Origin: Dioscorea cayenensis subsp. rotundata
Lineage: Eukaryota; Streptophyta; Magnoliopsida; Dioscoreales; Dioscoreaceae
DNA: 64,000 nt
Direction of reading: 5' to 3'
NCBI RefSeq assembly: GCF_009730915.1
Contig: NC_052489.1
Span: 25,847,916 to 25,911,915 of the forward strand
This document shows positions 3,486-46,974 of this stretch, piece after piece. How positions within the stretch are numbered: the first letter of the stretch is position 1; the number at the start of each line of letters is the position of its first letter. The notes under the pieces are model-generated. The model worked only from the letters and a program-made list of their open reading frames with translations. It had not been told where the DNA came from and did no database searches. The position numbers were made by a program, and so were the translations under genes.

Positions 3486-3891
3486 GCATAATGTTCTTTC
3501 ATTTCCGAACATCATCAACCATGCTTCTCGAGTGGGGTTGTTTTAATTGAAATCTTGAGGTTTTGGGAAACTAAGTAAGAGTTCCCAGTAGGCTTATCTA
3601 TAACAAAACATTCATTTAACTACTAAACAAGCTGAAGTTTTGTTTCCATGTATTGTAAATTCTTTTATTTGTTATGGATGTATTTTATCATTTTGCGGTA
3701 TTGGTGTTGGCTAATGGTTTTAAAATGTTTTATCAGGCTGCTTAATTTATGAGCTCTTTACTGGTTTGAAGTTAACCAAAACAGAGGAGCTACGTAATAC
3801 AGCTCACATTCCAAAGGTTATTCCTCCTCATTTACTGCAATGACTTAGTGATACATGTTTAATGATTTTATAGTTAATGTTTTTCTGCTAT

Positions 3892-3938
<47 letters not shown>

Positions 3939-6900
3939 ATATATATATATATATATATAAGCCAATTATCTGCACTATTAATAAATCTGATGTCCATGTG
4001 TTTGTCTGCAATATGGTTCATATATATATATATATGAGTAGCTTAATGATATTAATAAATCTAAAATCCATATCTCAATTGCCATTAGTTGAATAAAATA
4101 ATCTTCTAAACTCGCTTTTAATTCTTTGTATTTTATAAAGAATGTTTGCATTTTGCTAAATGAGCCATATGATCGTTTGCAATTATTCATTTTTTGTCTC
4201 ACAGTCTTTGCTTCCAGATTATCAGAGACTTTTGAGTTCTATGCCTTCACGCAGATTAAATTCTTCAAAGCTAGATAACAGTGGTAAGAGTTATATGCTA
4301 TCTTTTGTTGAGTACTTATATCAAACTCTCTTTATTCATAATGGGAAAACTTATTTCTTGTGATTTAGTGCTGAATGGTCCAAGCATATACCTATTACTC
4401 CTGTAAATTTCCTTTGGTCGTTGTTTGGTTGGGGGATATCCTGGAGATCCTAGGTTAGCCATCCCACCACATCCAACCAAGCACCCCAAGTTGGGTTAAA
4501 GTTCATCTCACCTGTTTTTTTTATAAGATTTAATAATTTAAATAAATTTAAATAGTAAGCAATTTAAAAATATTAATATTTGTGAACACCCATCATTAAT
4601 TAAACCAATCCTTTTGATCTCGGCATATTTATTTTAATTAATATTAATTAAGTGAAAGTTTGATCAACTTCAGGTAGAAGTTTCCCACCAAAAACAAATT
4701 CAATCAATTTATTGCAACCCAAACCAAACAAGACTTAGATTCTGTTTCATGTTCATAATTTATCTATAGTATCAGTTTTTTTTAGAATAATAATAAATTT
4801 TATGTACTAATTATCATTTCTTATAAGGAGATGGGTAGATATAACAACAATGGAGCATAATTTCTAGAGGTATGTGGGGTTTAGGAGACCAAGTCAAGCA
4901 TAGAATTTATGAAAGTATTTGGAAAATAGTCAAAATACTTACCTTATAAAATCCTGAACATCTTTGTCTTTGATATGACTTGTGATTCTACTTTATATGT
5001 GGCCATTATGTGGATGGTACGGCAAAATCCGATGCAATTTTCTCTTGGATTGATCTTTCCATGGTAGATTCCTTATTTGTCTTGGCTCTTACTTTCTGAT
5101 TAAGTCTGGGAAGAAAGAGTAATAAAGTGATGGTGAAACTATCCTCAGTATACAAATAATAACCGCTGGGTATCCTCATTTGACGCTGGGTAATCTGGTT
5201 AGCTGTGTTTTTCCTATGATGGTTGTTAATATTCATTCTGATCTGCAATGTTAAAATCACTCCCCTCCATCCCCCTCCACCATCACCCTGGGCGTTTCTT
5301 TCAGGACCTTGGTTTGTCACATGAGTCTGAATTTCATATTACATGCGATTCCACCAGTTGACTGGAGACTTTATTATTGGTATATCGATAGGTCCAGTAC
5401 GGATTGGGAAAAAACCAGAAGCAAAAAAATTCCCTTTTGTTTGATCTCCTCTTACTGATGGTCTAAAATATTCACAATTACTAATTCATATTTTTTTTTT
5501 CAGAATACTTTCAAAATAAATTAGTTGAAACCATACAGTTCATGGAAGTATTGAACTTAAAAGACAGTGTTGAGAAAGACGCCTTTTTCCGTAAGCTGCC
5601 AAACTTAGCTGAGCAGCTTCCCCGGCAGATAGTGTTGAAAAAGGTATATGAAATCTGCCTTTTAATGTGTTTATTCTGACACAATCTCTTTACACGCTCT
5701 GTATCTTCTTGTTATAGTTGCTTCCATTGTTGGCTTCTGCCCTAGAATTTGGGTCAGCTACTGCTCTTGCCTTAACAGCTTTGTTGAAACTGGGTTCCTG
5801 GCTTTCAACTGATGAATTCAATGCCAAGGTAATGTTAGCTCTTTATCATCAATTTCTGTTTTAGCTAGAGTCAGTGCTGCTATTTCCCTAGTTGACAGCA
5901 ATTTAGTACTGATTCACACTAAATATTTCCTGGGTTTTGATAGTTATTGCCAGCTATTGTGAAACTTTTTGCCTCTAATGACCGAGCAATTCGAGTTGGA
6001 CTTTTGCAACATATAGATCAATTTGGAGAATCATTAACAGCCCAAATTGTAGATGAGCAGGTATGTTATTGATTGCGACCATCTCCATAGCAATTTTGAA
6101 TCTTTTATCCTCATTGTCTCGTTTTGATTTTTTCCCTGGGTGACGTACTTTTGCAATTCTAATATATGTGAGAAACCTTTTAATAGGTTTTCCCTCATGT
6201 TGCCACTGGTTTTTCTGATACATCTGCCTTTCTTCGAGAACTGACACTGAAGTCCATGCTTGTTTTAGCACCAAAGGTATGCAACTTCATCAAAGATCTA
6301 AGTTAACTGGTGTATTCCCTTCAAAGATCTGAGTTTACTGATGTCTTCCCTTCAATTTTTCTGGACCAATTAGTTTTTGATGGTCCAAAAAATACTTTAG
6401 AAATTTGCAATTCTCATCTAGAAAATGTAACTTTCATTCATGTCTCCAACTTTACCACATTTAAATTATTGGCCATCATGTTTGAGTTTCTTTTGTTTTA
6501 AAATTGGCTTGTTAGGCTGAAGTAAAAATGGCACTTTAAGATCCATTTCTCCTAATTAAAATACATTATTTGTAATTAAATTATATATACTTTTTTAATT
6601 AGTGATTTGTTTATTGATAGTTAATTATTATATGTGTGTTTTTGTAAAGCTGTTTCTCAACATTGAAGTTTTTCCTGCACTACAGTTGTCCCAGCGTACA
6701 ATTTCAGGATCTCTGTTGAAGTATCTGTCGAAGTTACAGGTATATTTTATACTTTCTCCATCAAACCTGAGAAATCCTTTTGTTTTTGTATATTCTGTTT
6801 CCATCATGCATGCTCTATTGGTGGTCTAATGATGGTTTGTAGTCTTTATATTGGCAATATACATTTATGCTTATGTGCTTAGGTGATTTAACAGTTTATG

Positions 6901-27887: not shown

Positions 27888-30800
27888 CTTTATCTCTTAA
27901 TTCTTCATCATGGCATCCTCCACGAACACAGTAGTTTCCGCATCCACACAAAATTCCACTGTTGGCCTTCTTCCAACACCATCTTTTAGTCATGCCATCA
28001 GTGTTAAGTTAAACCGAGAGAATTATCTTATGTGGAAGGCACAGATGATGCCTTATCTCAAAGGGCAATCCCTACTTCAGTTTGTTGATGGTTCGTATCC
28101 GTGTCCAAAGGATACTATTATTTCCTTGAGTGAAGAAGGGGCATCACAAGAGCCTAATCCAGAGTATCATGCATGGTGCCAGCGTGATCAACAGGTGCTG
28201 AGTGCCATTCTATCCTCTCTGTCTGAAGAAGTTCTGGCACATGTACTTTTTCTTTCGACTTCAGCCGAAGTATGGAACGCACTGGACAAGATGTTTTCTT
28301 CAAGATCAAGAGCAAGAATCATGCAGATTCGTCTCCAACTAACTAATCTGCAGAAGAAAGAAACAACAGTGTCTGATTATTTTCGCCGGGTTAAGAATCT
28401 GGTGGACACTCTCTCAGCTATCGGACAACCTCTCCAGGATGAAGAGGTAATTTCATATATGTTGGCAGGTCTAGGATCTGAATTTGATCCTCTGGTTACT
28501 TCGATCTCTACTAGAAGTGAGCCAATTACTTTAAATGACCTGTATGCTCATCTGCTAAGCTTTGAAATGAGACTTGAGCATCATAGCTCAGTTCTTCAGA
28601 TGAATTCCTCTGCAAATATTGTCTCTAGAAATCAAGGTGGAAATTCAAGGGGGAGAGGCCGTGGTAGAGGTGGCAGAGGACCACCTCAAAGAGGCAACAA
28701 CAATTTCTACAACTCCTCTAGCAACCTTGGAAGAAGAGGCAATTATCAAGGGTCAAGACCCAAATGCCAAGTTTGTGGCAAAGATGGACACTCAGCTCTC
28801 AAGTGTTATCATCGTTTTGACCATTCTTATCAAGCTGAGGACACAAATTTTGCTGGTGTAGCAACTACAACATCATACCAAGTTGATCCAAACTGGTACA
28901 TGGACTCGGGAGCAACAGATCATATCACAAGTGATCTTGATCGACTCACAATCAAGGACAAATATGGAGGAGGAGACCAGGTTCAAGTCGGCAATGGTTC
29001 AGGTTTGCATATTTCTCATGTTGGTCATTCTAGTATTCACACTCCTCAAACTACTCTTTTGTTAAACAATGTGCTTCATGTTCCTAAGATTTCCAAACAT
29101 CTTGTGTCTGTCCATAAATTCACTAAAGATAACAATGTTTTCTTGGAATTTCACCCTTACCATTTTGTTGTGAAGGAACAAGCAACGAGGAGAAAACTTT
29201 ATCAAGGCAAATGTGAAGGAGGGTTGTATCCACTCAAGTTTAGTTACAATGCCCAAAAGACTGCCTTCTTAGGAAATAGAAACTCTCAAGACTTTTGGCA
29301 CCAAAGACTTGGTCATCCCTCAAAATCAGTTGTTCAGCTTGTTCTTCAGCAAAACAATCTTCCTTTTCTTAAGAATGATGTTGAAAATGTTTGTAATGCT
29401 TGTCAATTAGCTAAAAGTCATCAACTTCCCTACTCCAAGTCTACACATATTTCTGAAGCTCCTCTCCAACTCATCTTTTCAGATGTTTGGGGACCAGCTT
29501 TTCAATCCTCTAGTGGTGCAAAGTACTATGTAAGCTTCATTGATGATTATAGCAAATTCACTCGGATCTATCTCTTAAACAACAAATCGATGTTTATACC
29601 ACATTTTTTTCAATTCAAAAAAATCATGTTGAAAGACTTCTAGGCAAGGAAATTAAAAAGTGTTCAAAGCCCGATCGGGGGCGAATATCGAAACTTCATA
29701 AGTTCTTTAATCAAATTGGCATTCAACATAAAATCTCTTGTCCTCACACACATCAACAAAATGGTTCAGCAGAAAGAAAACATAGACACATTGTAGAAGT
29801 TGGATTAGCACTTTTAGCTCAAGCTTCTCTACCAATTAAATTCTGGGGTGAAGCCTTCCTGACATCTTGCTATCTTATAAATAGAATACCCAGTCGTGTG
29901 ATCAATAACAAAACTCCTCTAGAACAACTTCTTAGTAAGAAACCTAATTACTCTCTACTTAAAGTTTTTGGTTGTGCTTGTTGGCCAAATCTGAGACCCT
30001 ACAATGCCCACAAACTTTCATTTAGATCCAAACAATGTGTCTTTATTGGTTACAGTTCTCATCATAAAGGATACAAATGCCTTCACATTGAAAGTGGTAG
30101 AGTTTATATTTCCAGAGATGTAATCTTTGATGAAAATGTGTTTCCCTTCACTTCAAAACAACCCACTACTAAACAACAATCTGATTCCTCAACTCTTTTA
30201 CCCTCTTTTATTAATACTAGCACTATTTCAGAAACTCAACTGCACCCAAACATTGTTCCTTATAATCTCTCTAACTCATCTATTAGCAGTGACCAACTAG
30301 AGAATTATGAACAAAACCTTGTCCAGTCTGACTTTTCTCCCTGCAGATACTTTCGAATTTTCAACTCCCCGGTATAGCTTCCGAGACATATTTGGAGCAA
30401 CAAACAAAAATTTCGAGTCGAACAAGCACCAAGACACTCAATGAAAACCGGACTAAAAAGATAACATTAGAAAACCCAAGATTTTTCGGTGATGGCACTG
30501 CTTTATTCCGAGCACGCTCATGGCATCTTCCCGAACCTTCCACTCATCATCGAAGCTCTTCAAGTACCTTCTTTCGGAGACAAGCCATGGACATTGAGTT
30601 TGAAGCTCTTACGACGAATCAAACATGGGATCTGGTTCCCCAGAAGAAGGGTCTTAATCTTATTGATTGCAGATGGATTTTCAAACTCAAAAAGAAAGCA
30701 GATGGTTCTATTGATAGATATAAAGCTAGACTAGTGGCAAAAGGGTTCAAACAAAGGCATGGAGTGGATTATGATGACACATTTAGTCCTGTTGTCAAGT

Positions 30801-37445: not shown

Positions 37446-40400
37446 TTATTTCTGCGGCTCTTCATGATTGGTGGTAAACTTGTTCAACAGGTTTTTATTT
37501 TTGCCACTCCAAAACCATTTCCTGGAACTCTTGGTAACCAAGTTTTTTAGCCTCTTTGACTGGAGTGCAAGCATGTGTGATACTGATGGAGCTTTGGCAA
37601 GGTTCACAGCATAACCATCATCCATGTTCTCAGTACCTTCAGTAAATAGCTGCCAAAGGAGGGATCCTGCTCCACTCCCTCCTTTCTTTGTCGAACGCAA
37701 CAGTGTCTGATGTACCATATTAATGAAAGTATCACGGAAGGAGAAACTGAACCCTTCATGCTTCCTAGACACACCAAATTCTCCAAACACAACAGGCATT
37801 CCAAGTACATTATCTGCGTCGTCGATGTGGCTCTGCATCCATGTCCGGCCGAAGTTTAGGCGTGCTTTGGAATCTGGCTGCTTAATCCTTTCGAACATGA
37901 AATAGTATTATACGTGTTATGAATCTATTGATGATGGAATGACTGAATTGAATGTGCAAGAATCTGAACTCACCAAGAATCAGGATACATGTGAACAGAA
38001 GCGAAATCGATTCCTGAAGCTTGATGGTTTCTGATGAAATCAGTGCCTCCTTCTCCTGCACATCGACTGGGATTCAGAAGCATCTTGTCTGGGTTTGAAT
38101 AACCATAGAATCCCTCTTCTCCAATCTCAAGCAAATGAACTGGATCAATGGATTTCACATATGATGCCATTTCTTCTATCCATGCCTGCAAAATGTTCAG
38201 AAAGATATTCTGATTGATTTAATGTTCATTCATGCATTCTAGCAGTACTGATAATCAGATACCGAGAATTTAAAAATTGCAATGCAGTGGTGGCAAGTCA
38301 AATTATATTTCTTACATGTTATGTTTTATTATTATCAACTCTATCTAAGGATTTATAAGGTACTTCTTTTTTCAGGGAACTTTTGAAGGTAAACATCATC
38401 CATATATCATGAAGATTGTATATGATGACTAAAATGCACCACTGTTCCAAGACTATGAAGATTGTAGTCATCTTGCAGTGTGACAAATAAACCTCGGTTG
38501 ATGTATCAGTAACATGCTAAAAAGCAAGCCAGATATTAATCTGATGATGATGAAAAGAAATAATATCACACACACACATATCAAAGATATGCTAACCTGC
38601 AATTTATCACCCGAAGGATCAGAAGGGCATCGAGGTTCATTAATCAATTCCCATGCAAAAATAGTCGGATCATCTTTATACATCACATTGGTGATTGTGT
38701 TGACTCTGTTAAGGATTGCCTGCAAAAGCAATTGCGAGAGAACACAATCAACACATTTACTTAATACATAAGAAACAATAAAACTAAAAGCAACGAAAGG
38801 ATTACCTTAACATGAGCTTTATAGTAGCCCTTGATGGTTGGATCAGAGAAGAAGTCATCGTCACAAGTTATACTCAGGCCGGCATCTCTCCCCCAATTTA
38901 CATACTGAGCCTTGCCTCCAAATGCATTCCAATTATTAACAAAAGACAGTATCAGCCTGATTCCGAACCTCTTCGCCTCACTCAGTACGAAATCTAGTCC
39001 CTAGATGAAACATAAATATTTTCTCATTCACCAAAAACAATAGCTCTGATACCATATGTTAAGATACAACTATATAAAGCAACAATCTAATATGAATCAT
39101 ACAGATACATACAGATATAAAAAAATAAAAATAAAAATAAAAAGGTGAATACCTCAAACACTTTTTCATTGTAAACTCCAGGAGTTATCTGAAGAGCCCT
39201 AGAACCAGCATCATAGAAAGCCCAAGTTCGACAAACATTTAGACCAACAGAAGAAGCTTGGTGAAGAACTTTAGTGACCTCCTTCTTACGCTCATAAGCC
39301 GAAAGAACCATCAACCAGTAAGTATTGAATCCATTAATAAAGAAAGGCTTGTCTTCAACTACAAACTGGCATCCTCTCTTCCCCACCATTCCCCACTCCT
39401 TTTCCTCCATTATTTCCATTGCATGTGTCCTACCAGAATTCATTTAAAAACTAGAATTATACATCAATTGGCATAAGCATATATAATTCCTGAACTATAA
39501 AAGCTTTTAACAAATTCATACAATCTTTAGAATCATATTTCATGCCAATTACAAAGAAAACATTGTATACTTCCTCTTAACAAAGTTTAGAAAAAGAAAA
39601 TGACTGATTGATAACATGCTGCAGAAATTCCATTACCTCAAGGGGTGGACATGGGCCGGGCGACCCATGGGCTGGCCCGAACCCAGCCCAAAAAATACAG
39701 GGCTTGGGTTTAGAAAGTTGGCCCAAAAAACTGGGTTGGGCTCAAATGTTTTGGCCCGATTGAATTTCGGGCTGGGTTTGGGTCAGATGAATTTTGACCC
39801 GACCCGACCCGGCCCGACCCGAATAAATAAATAATATATATCATATATTATTTATAATATATATAATTATATACATATAATAGTAATAGGCTTGAAAAGA
39901 GTAAACATTTATAATACTTGTGTTGTATTTTTTTTTAAATGTTTGAAAAAAATTTAGGGGTTGTAGTAGTAGTTTTATTTAGTTATTTCAATTATTTCAT
40001 AAAAAAATTAATTATTTTTTGGGTCGGGTCGGGCTGGACCTGGGCCTAATAACAATCAAATGGGTCGGGTTTGGATCAAAACAATTTGGCCCGAACATGG
40101 CCCGGCCCAACCCAAATATATGGGTTGTATATTTGAGTCTAACCCAGCCCAGACCCGACCCAGCCCGGCCCATGTCCACCCTTACCTCAAAGTGGAGCAA
40201 AATGAAGATCAGATTTAAGGTACATAGGATTCCAGGATGCACAAGGTCAAGATAACAACTTGACTTTTTAATTTTTTTAATTTTGGTGTGTGTAATTTAG
40301 TTATATACCACCACCTATGAATTGTTCACACACTTTGGAACCGTTTGTGATCAGGTCTTGGCTGTTGCTTCAACTCGAAGTATGTTATAACTTCGGTGGA

Positions 40401-41318
40401 TCATGTAGTTGGCCACGTGGATAATTTTTTTTGTCAAATAATTTACATTTTTAAACAGTACCCAATTTTTGTCTGTAGTACAAGTTGGTATATTTTAAAA
40501 AGTAAAATTTATGAAATTTGAAAATTAGTTCCTTACAACTTTTTGTTTTTTACATTTCTCAATTCAAAATTCAAAATGGTTTGAATTTGCAACGCAATTT
40601 CTCTTTTATATGATTTTCATATTTTATTTAACAAAAAAAAAAAGTTTATCAAATTTGATCAGTTATTTATATTTATTTTTGCTTCATATATTAATTTTGT
40701 AGCCATATTATGTTTAATTGGCTATAATAATTTTTTAAAATTTATAATAAATAAATAAACCACAAATTCATCTTTTTATGTTTTATTTAATAAAATTATA
40801 ATTTATTTATTTATATTAAAAATATATATAGAAGGACATCTTCTACAACAGCTTTATCAAAAGCAATTATTAATGTAATAAATAATGTTTTATGAAGTAC
40901 TGCGCTACTCCTACGGGCCAAAACGCCTACTTTATAGCACTTGTATGATAAATGATAATATAATAAGAAAACAACAGAAGTAAATAGAAAAAAGCTTCGC
41001 TAATGACCAGATCGTTGTATAGTCCTAGTACTAATTATTATCATGTGAATAGTGCTTTCTTATAATGCAACTTGAAAGAACAAGAAAGGTTCAAGAAAGG
41101 GAATCAAAATGCATTCAAGAAATATACAATAATACCTGTTTCTCCCCTTGCTATTTGAAAAACAGCTGAGCATATTCATACAACAACACCTAAAAGCACA
41201 AAAAATAAAATAAAATAAAATAAAAACACATTTTGATTTGATAATATATATATATATATATATAAGTAAACTAATTTGAAAGAAAAAAGAAAGCTTACAT
41301 GAAAGAGCTGATTGCCAT
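37446..41318 (-). CDS. Mannan endo-1,4-beta-mannosidase (GH5)
   Basis: Secreted hydrolase cutting beta-1,4-mannan in cell walls or seed reserves. Minus-strand exons: 41299-41318, 41136-41189, 39153-39429, 38806-39000, 38597-38719, 37974-38185, 37446-37887. All phases agree, giving about 440 residues. The core is well supported: [11 protein letters not shown], the acid/base Glu210 in [16 protein letters not shown], and the nucleophile Glu330 in VVFGEFG. The last five exons are certain. The two leader exons (a 20-nt coding exon giving MAISSF plus 2 nt, then 54 nt) are inferred from consensus splice sites and frame, and supply a short Cys/Met-rich N-terminus. The alternative is a start at 39443 within exon 3, reading [11 protein letters not shown]. 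Neither N-terminus is a classic signal peptide. The intron at 39430-41135 holds a hAT-type MITE. Confidence 0.88.
39634..40190. mobile_element. Non-autonomous hAT-type MITE in mannanase intron
   Basis: The element spans 39642-40182 (541 bp). Its ends are inverted repeats: left GGGGTGGACATGGGCCGGGC, right in reverse complement AGGGTGGACATGGGCCGGGC, matching at 19 of 20 positions. It is flanked by the perfect 8-bp duplication TACCTCAA (39634-39641 and 40183-40190), the size made by hAT transposases. Subterminal regions are packed with GGGTCGGG/CCCGACCC words around an AT-rich core. Open frames here are artefacts of those words. Confidence 0.9.
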
Positions 41319-42406
41319 TGTTGAGCAGAGAGGCAGCCACTTCTCCTCTTTCACTGCTTTTTAGAGGTGAATGCAGTGAATGGAGAAATAAATAAACACA
41401 TGCATATGTATATATAGCAATATAACTTTGTCTCTATATGAAATTTCCCTGTAAGAAATGATTTTGAATTATAGGGGACGTCTCAAAAGACAGACGCTCC
41501 ATTGGATGACAAAAGGAGAAACATTCCATTATTTGATTTGAATTGAGAGAGGGCGCCAGAAAATGGTAACAAGAAAGTAAGAGACGGTGAATTCTTTGGA
41601 GAATTGTCTTCGATGGAGGCATTCACATTTTCATAGAAGAGGAAAGATGAGCTAGCTGACAAAACGGTACAATAAGTTTAAGAAAGATGGCTAAGTTCAT
41701 TTAAATTTTCAAAATTCAAATGTGTCCATAGATGATGAGCACGTGGTAGTTTTTATTTATTTATTTATTTATTTTTTTAACATTATACCTCTTGTTGGAT
41801 CATCCAATTTATGGAATAAATAAATGATGGTTATGAACATGGTAATGGAGAAATTACATGAAAAGTTGTCAATGATTGTACTTTGTATTGCAAAGCAAAT
41901 GAATTATTAAAGCAAAAAAAATAATATTTAAATACATTAAAACTGAAAGAAAATCTTTCAAGGATATATATTACATGGGTAAAAATTGAGCAAAAATGCA
42001 ATTATTTTAATATGTTTATAACAATGAGAACATATACAGATTGGAAATTTCGCCTTGATAAATAACACTTGGAGAGTCTTAAAATCATCAGAAATTTACA
42101 ACTGCGTTAAAACTTTATCTTGTGCACTTTCTGTGTACAAGTGTAACATCCCCAAATACCAGATGAAGGCCCTGAGGGACAACAACTCTGCAAGTGGTTA
42201 TTGAAGCTCCCTTAAACAAGATGGCCTGGACCAAGTCTAAGAATAAGCATACAATAACATATATAACAGGCAAAACAATTTGGATGATGACAAAGGAAAA
42301 TATCTTGACACAAAAATATTGCAATTGATATGTACGGAAATAAATTTTCCCATATAACTAAATAATTAAGGGCAACAAAAAAAAGTTATTACGATATTCA
42401 TGCAAA
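41319..42406. other. Mannanase 5' flank and AT-rich spacer
   Basis: Contains the probable mannanase leader and promoter (TATATATAC on the minus strand near 41408-41416), then AT-rich DNA with an (ATTT)n run near 41756. No gene recognised. Confidence 0.5.
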
Positions 42407-42486
42407 GAGGCCTCAGAATCATAGCAGATCATTATCATGGAAAGCATTCATGCAATGTAGGCAATATTTTGATCGTCACAGGCCTC
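42407..42486 (-). ncRNA. Box C/D snoRNA, copy 1
   Basis: On the minus strand a perfect 7-bp terminal stem GAGGCCT/AGGCCTC encloses a C box GTGACGA (42473-42479) and a D box CTGA (42413-42416). An internal ATGATAA-like C' box lies between them. The conserved guide TATTGCCTACATTGC (complement of 42452-42466) precedes a D'-like ATGA. The guide is complementary over 12 nt (CAATGTAGGCAA) to a conserved 25S rRNA segment I recall as ACAATGTAGGCAAGG, so a 2'-O-methylation guide for 25S is predicted. The box-plus-stem structure is seen; the target is from memory. Confidence 0.8.
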
Positions 42487-42642
42487 TAGTATTGCTAACA
42501 AATGCACATACTGATCCAGTTCAAAAAGAATCTCTTGATCTCAGAGAAAAACCAGTTGAGATGAGAACTAGGAAAACAAACGCAATAAACCATAATCTGT
42601 AAATATTAAAAGGGCAGGAGAAAACTCTGCATCCAAGCAAAA

Positions 42643-42719
42643 GGGCTTCAGAATATTTGCAGAATCATATCATGAGACGGCATCAAGCAATGTAGGCAAT
42701 ATTCTGATCATCCCAGGCC
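42643..42719 (-). ncRNA. Box C/D snoRNA, copy 2
   Basis: Paralogue of copy 1 with the same 15-nt guide (42687-42701) before a D'-like TTGA and a D box CTGA (42648-42651). The C box reads GGGATGA (42708-42714), one base off consensus, and the terminal stem is weaker, so it may be less efficient or decaying. The segment before the D box differs from copies 1 and 3. Confidence 0.65.
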
Positions 42720-42824
42720 ACTGTTATTGTTATTCAAATATTTATTGTGATCAAGTTCCTCATAAACAAAACAAAGCAAAACAGAACAACAAACAGAAAA
42801 CAAAAACTTTGGCATCCAAGCAAA

Positions 42825-42898
42825 AGGCCTCAGAAGAGCAATGTCTTATCACGAAAACATATCAAGCAATGTAGGCAATAAGCTGATCATCACAGGCT
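42825..42898 (-). ncRNA. Box C/D snoRNA, copy 3
   Basis: Third paralogue: C box GTGATGA (42887-42893, perfect), D box CTGA (42830-42833), terminal stem GCCT/AGGC, C'-like GTGATAA, and the same guide (42866-42880) before a TTGA D'-like box. Flanking DNA on the D-box side (CATCCAAGCAAAAGG) is shared with copy 2, showing local tandem duplication. Confidence 0.78.
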
Positions 42899-44059
42899 TG
42901 AAATAGAACATAATAAATAAATATAAAAAACCCAGGAAAACAACAACCGACTAATAAGCGCTATGCAACAACATAACTGCTTGTTAAGAAGATTAGAGAA
43001 AAAAATGGTTTTCATGACAGGAGATAGCTACTGGTGTGGATTAAAGCATAATTCATAAGTAGCCACCTTACTCAGACACCAGATGAAAACAAAATCAAGC
43101 ATGAAAAGATCACAAGGTCCCAGGACAAACAGCAACCTCAAAATAATCAGTAATCAGAATTAAATAGCACAAGAGAATGTCACCCAACTATAATTTTCTT
43201 CAAAGCCAGGGACAAATATTTTATATGGAATTCCATCAAGGCATATTTCTAATCATCATAACCCTCCCTGTCTTAAAAAAAATACAAAAGATGGTAGCAA
43301 AGGCAACAAATCAATTTGAGGATAGGGAACCGGGCCCTAATTTGCTTTTCATGAAAAACAAACCTAGTCATTAACAACAAAATCTACCTACACGCATACG
43401 AGAAATGAATGGGTTTATTCATTTGCAGACATGCATACTTCAAGATAAATGCACAACCAAATTATGACATAACCCAACAGAAAAAATCCACACGCATAGG
43501 ACGATCATTCAAATTCAATGATAAGAAATTACTCAGGACAGTTCTGTCAATGAAAATCTGAGAAAGTGCAAGTGAAAGTGGTAATATATTCACTGGCATA
43601 ACTCATAGAGTTGCCTCAAATTGTTTGCAAGCAAACCTTCCCTTAACTACAAACTCTGTTGCCCATCAGCGAATCTACAGGTTCACATTTCATCATCTGA
43701 AACCAAAGTTAAAAAAACTTCACCACACAAAACATGATCTAGGTCAGCATGTTATTATAGGAAGGCATAGATCACGCATGCATACATTTTGTCAATAAAA
43801 AAAATCTGTCAAGGGAAGCATAAATTACCTAAGCATTGGAGTGGAAAAAAAAAACATAGACCACTAAAAGTGAAAAACTTTAACCATATCTTTTCAATGG
43901 GATCTATCGATCCTGTCAAATAAGAGGAATTGTTGTGAACATAGCTAGGCATCAGAAGAATCATCAACAACCATTACTTGACAATAAAAAGATTTAACAA
44001 GAATATATTGGAACACGACATGTATAACACTAAACCACATCCCTCTTCAAACAGATAAT
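42899..44059 (-). other. Non-coding stretch between small gene and snoRNAs
   Basis: No protein-like ORF. On the minus strand this would be the 3' part of a transcript running from the 51-residue gene through the snoRNA cluster. Isolated TGATGA and CTGA words occur, but none is arranged as a further convincing snoRNA. Confidence 0.4.
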
Positions 44060-44634
44060 TCAGGCTTTGTTCTTCTCAATGATGATTCGCACAAGTCCAA
44101 GCACAATACCCTCTCCCAATTCTTCCTCTTGTATATAGAGAGCGTATTGTGCTAGTTTCCACCTAAACAACAAAAAAAACAGCAGCAGCAGCAGCAGAAG
44201 CAAAAATTAAAATCAACCTTTATGAATGTCCATACACAACCAAGACATTATATTATAATCACCGTGAAATTTACCAAATCAAGGTTGCCTATGTTAAGAA
44301 AACTACTCTCAAGCACATCACCCACTGCAGGACATGTGCACTGATAAGCATGGAAATCAAATGCCAACAAGAAATCCACCAAAAGTTTCAATCTTGGCCC
44401 TATAAACAACGATCATTTTGATGGCATAAGCTCTCAAACTTCTGAACCAGCTAAATAAACCTTCTCCACGGATTCCTTAACAACCAACTTCTTCTTTTAG
44501 CTTCAATGAAGATCAAAGGAAACAAACTAGCAAGGCAAAGAAGAGAAACATGAAACCACTTCCTCAGAAGAGAGCCAATACCTTCGCGGCCTCATCCTTC
44601 GTCCCAGCAATGACAATGAGATCTTCTCTTCCAT
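44060..44634 (-). CDS. Small two-exon gene, 51 residues, possible snoRNA host
   Basis: Exon 1 is 44582-44634, starting at ATG after a CTAGGGTTT-type leader, with a consensus donor (GCGAAG/GTATTG). Exon 2 is 44060-44162, with acceptor TTGTTTAG and a stop. Phases match and give a 51-residue protein with a basic N-terminus (GRRMRPRRWK) and an amphipathic, acidic-hydrophobic second half (ALYIQEEELGEGIVLGLVR, then IIIEKNKA). I do not recognise the family. The second exon looks coding, while the first could also be read in a frame giving DLIVIAGTKDEAAK, which lacks an ATG. A (CAG)n-like run at 44181-44200 lies in the intron. Its position upstream of three snoRNAs on the same strand suggests a snoRNA host transcript. 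Confidence 0.45.
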
Positions 44635-44775
44635 ATTGATGAAAAACAGAGGACTAAACCCTAGCAAGCAAGCACGCATCATAGTAACAAGACTGGACTA
44701 GAGTGGCGGCGTGTCCGCGAGATCGAGGATTTTTAAAACAAAACCCTAATTTTCGGTTTGAAATTTTGCAAAAAC

Positions 44776-44777
<2 letters not shown>

Positions 44778-44813
<36 letters not shown>
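44778..44813. repeat. (TA)n microsatellite
   Basis: About 18 TA units upstream of the small minus-strand gene. Confidence 0.95.
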
Positions 44814-44816
<3 letters not shown>

Positions 44817-44979
44817 CCGCCTTCCACGGACACAACTCAACAACATAAAACTTAAAAACAAAACCCTAATCCTCAATTTGAAATTTGAAATTCTGTAATA
44901 ATATATATATTTAGCACCGTTGGGTTATCCGGTTATGATCCCTAATATAAAATCTTGGGTGCATATAATATAATAGATC

Positions 44980-45084
44980 TTCATTATTCCATGTGTTACT
45001 CTGCCCTACATATTAAATTCGTATTCATATACGTAATAAAATAAATGCATTTGTAGAGCATGATAACACGTGGAATAATGAAAA
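44980..45084. repeat. Foldback (hairpin) element
   Basis: The left arm starts TTCATTATTCCATGTGTTAC. The right arm in reverse complement starts TTCATTATTCCACGTGTTAT. The arms match over most of about 42 bp, so the whole 105-bp segment can fold into one hairpin. It is non-coding and probably a small MITE or its relic. Confidence 0.75.
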
Positions 45085-45245
45085 CCTATAAATAATTTAT
45101 TCACTCTCGTTGTCTTGCATGCTGCCTTGCTTTTAAATAAGTGTATCTCAGTATTTTACCTTGTCTTACTTATTGACATTCTTAAAATAGTAGGTGCTTG
45201 TCGCCACTCATTAAAAAAAAGGTTTGAAAGGAGCTTTCACATAAT

Positions 45246-45912
45246 CTGTTACTTAATGTTGTTAAAAATCTAGTGGATTTGTATTTACAAAACTTTGTGT
45301 TTAAAAATTTAGGAGAGTCAAATCTAATATTTGATTAAATGTATTTGTAATGCTGGATCATAGAATTTTGTGTTTGATCGGAGGGATTTGTAAATTTGGA
45401 TTTTGAAAACATGTATTTGGTTTGATGTGTTTTTACCAGAATTACATGTTATTATAAATAATTAATATTTATTATAAAATATACAATTTTTTTTAATATA
45501 AATATGAATTCAAATTTCAAATATTACGAGTAATTAATATAATTAATATATCCTTAATTTATTATAATAAAATACAATATATTAATTATTTATTAAATTA
45601 ATTAATATAATATACTGATTATATATTATATTACTAATATTAATTACACTATAATTATATTTATAAAATATTTTATAAAATATAATTATAGTGTAATTAA
45701 TATAATTAATATAATATATTAATTATATTATATTAAGTCATGGGAGGGATTTACTATATGGAATTTTAGAATTCGGTCATTTTAGTCTAATTCCATAATC
45801 CCATGATTATTGGATTTAAAAATACAAAAAAAAAAAATTCAAATTTTTTGATACAAACAAAAAAATTCTCAAATCCATGAAAGTTTTAAATTCAGTCACA
45901 CAAACACCTCCT
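45246..45912. mobile_element. AT-rich foldback, possible MITE relic
   Basis: AATTTAGGAG near 45306 and CTCCTAAATT near 45907 form exact inverted 10-mers. Between them lies a long AT-rich region with a strong central palindrome (45639-45702, arms with TTACACTATAATTATA). GGATTTG/CAAATCC words occur in both halves. This looks like a decayed inverted-repeat transposon, but ends and target duplication are not certain. Confidence 0.4.
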
Positions 45913-45944
45913 AAATTGACAGCATTGGCACCGGAAATGAACAC

Positions 45945-46974
45945 ACTATAGTAACTTTTCAATCAAACTCCATGGGTTTGAACTTTGAAGCATCAGGCCA
46001 TTTCTCAAGGATTTCTCCATAAAATATCTCCACTTGCCTAGATGTTTTTTTTTTTTGGTCAAATATTGTTGCTGGACGGTATTTAGAAACAGTGAAAACT
46101 GCAGAAAGTACTGTAGCAATGCACAGGTCACTAACACTGTATTTAGAAACAATCAAATATTGGTTACTGTTCACGCACGGGCAGTGTGCGGCCCGCAAAA
46201 CTTCACTGGCAATTCTACGCGGCCCGCGCGGTTCACTGGCGATCCGCTGTGGTTCACAAAGAGGCTTGCTGCGGCTGCGTGCGACCAGCGCACTTCATTG
46301 GCGATCGGCACACTCCACTAACAACCTTGCGGCCGCGTGCGGCCGCGAACTCGGAAAAACACCTTCAATAGCTTCCTCGAGGCTTCAATGCTCCTCCCAA
46401 GGGTTCTCAAGGCTTCAAAGCTCCAACTCAAGCATAAAACACTACCAAACCCCTCAATTCTTGTTAGAATGGGATAAACAAACATACAACAATGCAAGAC
46501 AACGATTTAGCGTGGAATACCCTAGAGGGAAAAACCACGGGACTCCTTAGTCCTTAGAGCCTCTTAAACATGCTTCACTACATTAACAATGGGATACAAT
46601 GAGGTCTCTCTAGATACAACTAGAGGATAACAAAGAAGAAGGCACAATAACTCGAGAGCAAGCTCTTGGCACACATACATCATCAACACACATGATGGAT
46701 AACAAAGAGAGACATCAAGAAGAGATTAAGGAAGATCAAACCAGTAGGCTGGGAGAGCTACCCGCAAGGATTGACTACCCGAAGTTGGGGTGAAATCCGG
46801 CACTGATTTGCCGACCGATCATCTTGCTTTGCTTAACCCTAGCCTCCTTTGTCTTCCTCTTCTTCTTGGTTTCCTTGCCTTCAAACCCTCACATTTTTTT
46901 TTTTTCTTTTTTTTTCTTTCAACTTGGGCCAAGCCCAATTATTTCTTCTAGCCCAAATGGGCTGAAACCCAACA
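45945..46974 (-). mobile_element. LTR-retrotransposon fossil (probable copia LTR and adjoining sequence)
   Basis: Read on the minus strand, 46974-46462 begins TGTTGGGTTTCAGCCC and ends CATTCTAACA, so it has the TG...CA ends of an LTR. Inside is the GTGGTTTTTCCCTCTAGGG segment often found in plant copia LTRs. The adjoining GC-rich part (46180-46340), with repeated TTCACTGGCGAT/GCGGCCGCG words, probably belongs to the same fossil. No coding domains remain and no matching target duplication is evident, so it is an old, broken piece. Confidence 0.45.

Follow-up and report, generated by a model that had tools for sequence, protein, structure and literature searches.

The snoRNA U34 of Arabidopsis, AtU34, has been assigned to position Um1882, which corresponds to Um2824 of human U34 and to the site of yeast snR62 (PMC3511168, PMC8817022). 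The equivalent rRNA position in yeast is numbered Um1888 (PMC8817022) or printed as Um1886 (PMC3511168). snR62 is a fungal gene, and we liken it to the locus described here by its target site and not by sequence comparison. According to excerpts of the published accounts, the name U34 is linked to the rpL13a locus (PMC8575768), and the literature surveyed names no host for AtU34. Telo-boxes in either orientation, together with Site II elements, mark the promoters of plant snoRNA and ribosomal-protein genes (PMC4660826). The spread of snoRNA copies has been credited to retrotransposition and local recombination (PMC8178906, PMC4233971), and TTA or TAA target duplications are described for transposons of the PIF/Harbinger type (PMC8903248).

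The 64-kb stretch of DNA analysed here, referred to as the window, contains three neighbouring units on the minus strand at 42406-42899. The units resemble SNORD34/AtU34 in boxes, size, D' guide and target, Um1882 (PMC3511168, PMC8817022). They differ from AtU34 in that three tandem copies are present within the apparent remains of a gene for eIF2-beta. The first-pass annotation had recognized a cluster of three minus-strand units at 42407..42898, with outer limits that are correct to within 1 nt. The number and strand of the units stand, whereas their length, given as 74-80 nt, has to be revised to 76, 82 and 82 nt by Rfam limits.

Family assignment and box structure of the three units

It is near certain from their sequences that the three units are box C/D snoRNAs of the known and ancient SNORD34/U34 family. 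The units were compared with the Rfam covariance model of the family (RF00147, gathering cut-off 38 bits), which bears out the class box C/D snoRNA proposed previously. Copy A (42824..42899, minus strand) scores 42.0 bits and copy C (42406..42487, minus strand) 43.7 bits. Both are above the cut-off, and the two E-values in the 64-kb window are 3.3e-5 and 9.4e-5. Copy B (42641..42722, minus strand) is just short of the threshold reached by the other two units, with 37.7 bits, 0.3 bit under the cut-off.

Copy A has the best boxes of the three. Its C box is GUGAUGA, and it is the only unit with a canonical C box (RUGAUGA); the D' box UUGA is located at 42865-42862, the C' box reads GUGAUAA and the D box CUGA. 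The C box of copy B is GGGAUGA, in which the first U is changed, and that of copy C is GUGACGA, also with one change; the respective D' boxes are UUGA and AUGA. The D box CUGA is present in all three units, each of which has a C'-like box between D' and D. The C and D boxes claimed in the first-pass annotation are therefore present, with the C box changed by one base in copies B and C. The perfect terminal stem of 7 bp that had been attributed to one copy belongs to the 42406-42487 unit, copy C. The stem is imperfect in copy A and poor in copy B. Copy B is probably defective, as its sequence combines a changed C box with a poor stem, and the equal function previously implied for the three units is not supported. 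The position changed in the C box of copy B is also altered in the transposon-borne B copies described below. The folding energies of four units were no better than those of shuffled sequences (z -0.43 to -1.50).

The segment preceding the D box is diverged among the three units, as had been claimed. The accompanying proposal that selection holds the D' guide alone is not sustained, since the D', C' and D boxes are also largely kept across copies A, B and C. Furthermore, decayed transposon-borne copies keep the guide too, and guide identity alone is thus weak evidence of selection. The likeness between the units reaches past the RNAs; copies A and B share the 3' flanks TTTTGCTTGGATGC. This similarity outside the RNAs points to tandem duplication of the units.

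The covariance models of SNORD91, snoR77Y and snoR117 also align to the 42406-42487 unit, yet all remain under their own cut-offs and were rejected. A match to snoZ247 (RF00321) elsewhere in the window (28429-28567, plus strand, 60.4 bits) was rejected as a snoRNA, since it is located inside a Copia gag frame (27901-29643). The genome contains at least 46 scored matches to snoZ247, all of them above the cut-off. The context of the window match, the one that was checked, makes this Rfam family look like retrotransposon coding sequence and not snoRNA.

Guide sequence and predicted rRNA target

The 15-nt sequence TATTGCCTACATTGC, with a D'-like box directly after it, is identical in the three units, in agreement with the first-pass annotation. 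The 12 nt UUGCCUACAUUG common to the units are located on the minus strand at 42878-42867 in copy A, 42699-42688 in copy B and 42464-42453 in copy C. They are fully complementary to CAAUGUAGGCAA in the genome's own 25S rRNA sequences. The pairing beside the D' box, for which at least 10 nt had been anticipated, comprises 12 bp with 0 mismatches in all three units and 11 bp in the SNORD34 copy on C9.

The pattern CAATGTAGGCAAGGGAAGTCGGC, which we take to be plant 25S rRNA sequence, was found at four places in the same genome, compared with 0 for the reversed control. An earlier form of the pattern with one extra leading base had 0 matches in the genome. The scan for rRNA covered two of the four places, loci L043 and L046. 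In L043, the target site at 1501 falls within an LSU rRNA match at 935-2730, and the target that the first-pass annotation had given is thereby located in the genome. This match runs from one end of the 3401-position model to the other in just 1796 nt, and the L043 rDNA locus is therefore probably incomplete. In L046 (C2:12604501-12610500), the LSU match stops at 3789, 9 nt short of the U34 target site at 3798, the last aligned model position being 1888 of 3401. The rDNA unit of L046 is partial or divergent.

The target nucleotide was assigned by the D'+5 rule, and the count, read by eye, leads to the U of CAAUG in the CAAUGUAGG site. Given in Arabidopsis numbering, this predicted target is near certain to be the equivalent of Um1882 of AtU34. 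A search for targets of the second guide, before the D box, in five partly overlapping rRNA loci from four places identified no rRNA complementarity common to the copies, just scattered matches of 10-11 nt.

A complete eIF2-beta gene and remnants of a putative host

The genome-wide search for the SNORD34 family scored 68 of 107012 candidates, so that its counts are lower bounds, and returned at least 12 matches with E up to 10. Those above the cut-off are copies C and A and one copy on C9 (C9:2392350-2392435, corresponding to 4950-5035 on the minus strand of locus L028; 38.2 bits). The weak matches under the cut-off (9/12) were not counted as genes unless otherwise supported, and the same search gave sub-cut-off matches in 11 of the 14 prokaryote genomes that served as controls.

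The C9 SNORD34 is located in the intron that separates exons 8 and 9 of a gene for a 272-residue eIF2-beta, the product of which matches Pfam eIF-5_eIF-2B with E 7.4e-41. The exon joins of this sequence-based model were placed by us at GT/AG-type borders. The D box of the C9 SNORD34 reads CAGA, not CUGA, despite the better-kept host gene. A genome-wide protein search with eIF2-beta resulted in eight matches, seven of which are pieces of the C9 gene and one of which is a weak match (28% identity) on C4. No second complete eIF2-beta gene was seen in this search. One of the C9 matches includes a stop, and overruns the exon edge.

The window contains candidate remnants of the same gene. A truncated remnant of exon 7, in which VVKGRFACKQFEATL is partly readable, was identified by local DNA alignment at 43606..43695 on the minus strand. 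It scores 41, compared with at most 16 across 60 simple shuffles, and has a weak E of 0.31 at the protein level. The DNA match of window 43512-43695 to C9 is 68% with E 8e-18, to be read against AT-rich stretches that reach about 1e-4 by chance in the same comparison. Local alignment also revealed a remnant of exon 5, EEELGEGIVLGLVR, at 44087..44130 on the minus strand (score 22 versus a shuffle maximum of 13, n=60; 79% over 14 residues; E 0.24 in the window). A possible, weak remnant of exon 2 at 44432..44526, on the same strand, scores 18 versus a shuffle maximum of 15 (n=60). The other six of the nine exons, 1, 3, 4, 6, 8 and 9, gave nothing in the window above 60 simple shuffles. The remnants of exons 5 and 7 are upstream of the window snoRNAs, in the right order and on the same strand.

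Farther upstream of the exon remnants are three exact Telo-boxes AAACCCTA at 44656, 44741 and 44861 (44656..44868). Three of the five exact matches of the 64-kb window are located within these 213 bp. The window total of five is not unusual, since the shuffle mean is 2.39 and 9 of 100 shuffles reach five. No Site II element was found near the three clustered Telo-boxes. This cluster may represent a promoter region that was kept from the host. The surroundings of the two loci are also alike. A tRNA-Ile (93% over 91 bp) and an ERF-like gene (59% identity over 297 residues) flank both the window cluster and the C9 gene in the same order and orientation. The ERF-like protein was the only one of 12 window protein queries to match, and the other 11 had no match in 90 kb of C9; the collinearity therefore rests on few anchors. 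The reading of the window locus as a decayed eIF2-beta host is somewhat less certain than the family of the snoRNAs and their target.

Transposons with snoRNA cargo

A DNA search of the genome with window 42400-42900 resulted in ten matches. Copies of a single element, about 5.7-7.1 kb in length and equipped with terminal inverted repeats (TIRs), were identified on C4, C10, C5, C11 and C16. The flanking target duplications are TAA/TAA on C10 and C16, TCA/TCA on C5, and TAA/CAA, with one mismatch, on C4. The copy on C11 is represented by its 5' end, flanked by TTA, and no 3' TIR was found for it. Both ends with equal triplets are thus present in three of the five copies, and the triplet is TWA in two. 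The coding scan covered the C10 copy (1/5), in which three open reading frames match DDE_Tnp_4 (E 5.1e-10), Myb_DNA-bind_3 (E 5.3e-15) and no family, respectively; the transposase is in pieces. A DDE_Tnp_4 transposase accompanied by a Myb/SANT-like protein is the make-up of PIF/Harbinger elements.

The sequence carried by the element is homologous, in whole or in part, to the stretch of the window that contains copies A and B (42649..43243, minus strand). This homology ends at the D box of copy B. The D box is consequently lost from the B copies of the cargo, except on C4, where CTG can still be read. The full box set of copy A is present on C4 only; its 5' half is replaced on C10, C5 and C11, and copy A is absent on C16. 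Six of the ten guides among the copies listed, which were those with at most three mismatches, have 0 mismatches over 13 nt. A PIF/Harbinger-type transposon captured copies A and B together with intron sequence, and the boxes of its cargo are mostly broken.

A search with the initial 321 bases of the element gave at least 51 matches in the genome (40 of 197 candidates scored); the family therefore extends beyond the copies with cargo. Two further relatives of the element were examined over 2.9 kb each. In this stretch, the relative on C17 is without cargo, and the one on C10 contains intron cargo (window 43243-43026) and no snoRNA. A 0.55-kb GGGCC-rich stretch of the window (39641-40184) shares 92% identity with DNA adjacent to the C16 transposon (L025), and is probably another repeat.

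A second, non-autonomous element of 1.25 kb is present twice on C20 and once on C1823 (L026, L027 and L029). It has TIRs like GGGGCTGTTTGG and TAA or TTA target duplications, and these two properties constitute its likeness to PIF/Harbinger elements. Within this element is a relative of copy A, 77-78% identical to it over about 143 nt, in which the C, D', C' and D boxes are all intact and the guide before D' is a different one, ACAUUUGGCCCUCAUCG. A genome search with this piece gave five matches, which are the three elements and weaker relatives on C19 and C4. The core of the re-guided relative scores 28.9 bits on the SNORD34 model. Variable sites in the core number 0 of 66, versus 126 of 1107 elsewhere in the three copies, with a Fisher p of 7e-4 that is optimistic, because the core segment was chosen after the alignment had been seen. 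An identical run of 78 columns, as in the core, was reached in 258 of 20000 shuffles. Across these three copies the invariant core looks as if it were under selection. No convincing rRNA target beside D' of the re-guided relative was found in the incomplete rRNA loci searched. An older, separate paralogue may have been the source of the re-guided relative. The proposal that PIF/Harbinger-like transposons mobilize box C/D snoRNA genes in this genome and gave rise to a re-guided snoRNA is speculative, and we consider it improbable on the present sequences.

Discussion

Based on the sequences of the window, the C9 gene and the transposons, a history of the locus can be proposed. Copies A, B and C are very probably tandem SNORD34 paralogues with the U34 target and former passengers of eIF2-beta, the window copy of which would now be a putative non-coding host. 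This reading builds on the family assignment, the boxes, the rRNA complementarity, the two clear exon remnants and the single complete eIF2-beta gene found. The SNORD34 units would originally have been carried in an intron of the eIF2-beta gene. A chromosomal segment with the gene was presumably duplicated, with the protein and one SNORD34 preserved in the C9 duplicate. The window duplicate would have lost its protein coding, whereas the Telo-box region and SNORD34 were kept, and SNORD34 was multiplied, with tandem duplication giving rise to the three paralogous genes. A duplicate that retained the Telo-box region and the snoRNAs without the protein is most likely a non-coding snoRNA host. In the cell, the D'-associated guide would direct fibrillarin to 2'-O-methylate the U in CAAUGUAGG of 25S rRNA. 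We infer the duplication as such, as well as transcription, processing and methylation, and we expect function to be supplied by copies A and C, not B.

An alternative but unlikely history is that the cluster is a dying relic, and that the C9 copy in its intact-looking gene supplies U34. The guides would then be alike since little time has passed. The damage to copy B and the one-base change in the C box of copy C agree with such decay, as does the placement of the C9 SNORD34 in an intact-looking host. Moreover, the decayed transposon cargo has kept its guide in the six of ten listed copies without mismatch. However, copies A and C outscore the C9 copy (42.0 and 43.7 versus 38.2 bits), the D box of which is CAGA, and the host exons have decayed much further than the snoRNAs. 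We therefore favour the retention of the cluster in a non-coding host.

It is highly improbable that the window cluster was derived from the transposon and not the reverse, although five transposon copies with cargo from the A-B stretch could be cited for such an origin. In the C9 duplicate, SNORD34 is housed in an intron of eIF2-beta, and the surrounding 10 kb contain no terminal repeat of the large element (L028, at most 7/30 mismatches). Terminal repeats of either element are likewise absent from the vicinity of the window cluster (40000-46500; best 13/30 and 11/27 mismatches). Furthermore, the cargo is cut short in copy B, at its D box, and the C17 relative is free of cargo in 2.9 kb. The chance occurrence of box C/D-like sequence without snoRNA function, with which the ordinary single-strand folding energies would agree, has a negligible probability in view of E-values of 3.3e-5 and 9.4e-5 in 64 kb, the three copies, and the exact 12-nt match to the known rRNA site of the family.

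As snoRNAs, the three units are ordinary members of a known ancient family. What makes the locus interesting is its surroundings, with the transposon cargo and an eIF2-beta host that has apparently decayed. The apparent duplication and splitting of a gene for a protein plus a snoRNA offers a simple way in which a non-coding snoRNA host can arise. Titles and abstract openings surveyed contained no report of a plant snoRNA host that decayed following duplication, nor of snoRNA capture by elements such as those described here, which does not imply absence in print. The word snoRNA is absent from the main text of PMC8903248. Cut-and-paste transposons that pick up C/D snoRNA genes contrast with the published routes of retrotransposition and recombination, and the re-guided relative offers a cheap test of whether capture makes new guide RNAs.

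The elements can be compared with two described systems. The Pack-PIF and other gene-capturing DNA transposons of plants likewise have TTA/TAA duplications and carry pieces of host DNA (PMC8903248). In contrast to Pack-PIF, the cargo here consists of an intron that includes two snoRNA genes, located beside transposase-like and Myb/SANT-like coding pieces. In mammals, snoRNA genes were likewise spread by a mobile element, as snoRTEs (PMC4233971). The snoRTEs are H/ACA RNAs with retrotransposon parts, whereas the RNAs carried here are of the box C/D class and reside in plant TIR elements.
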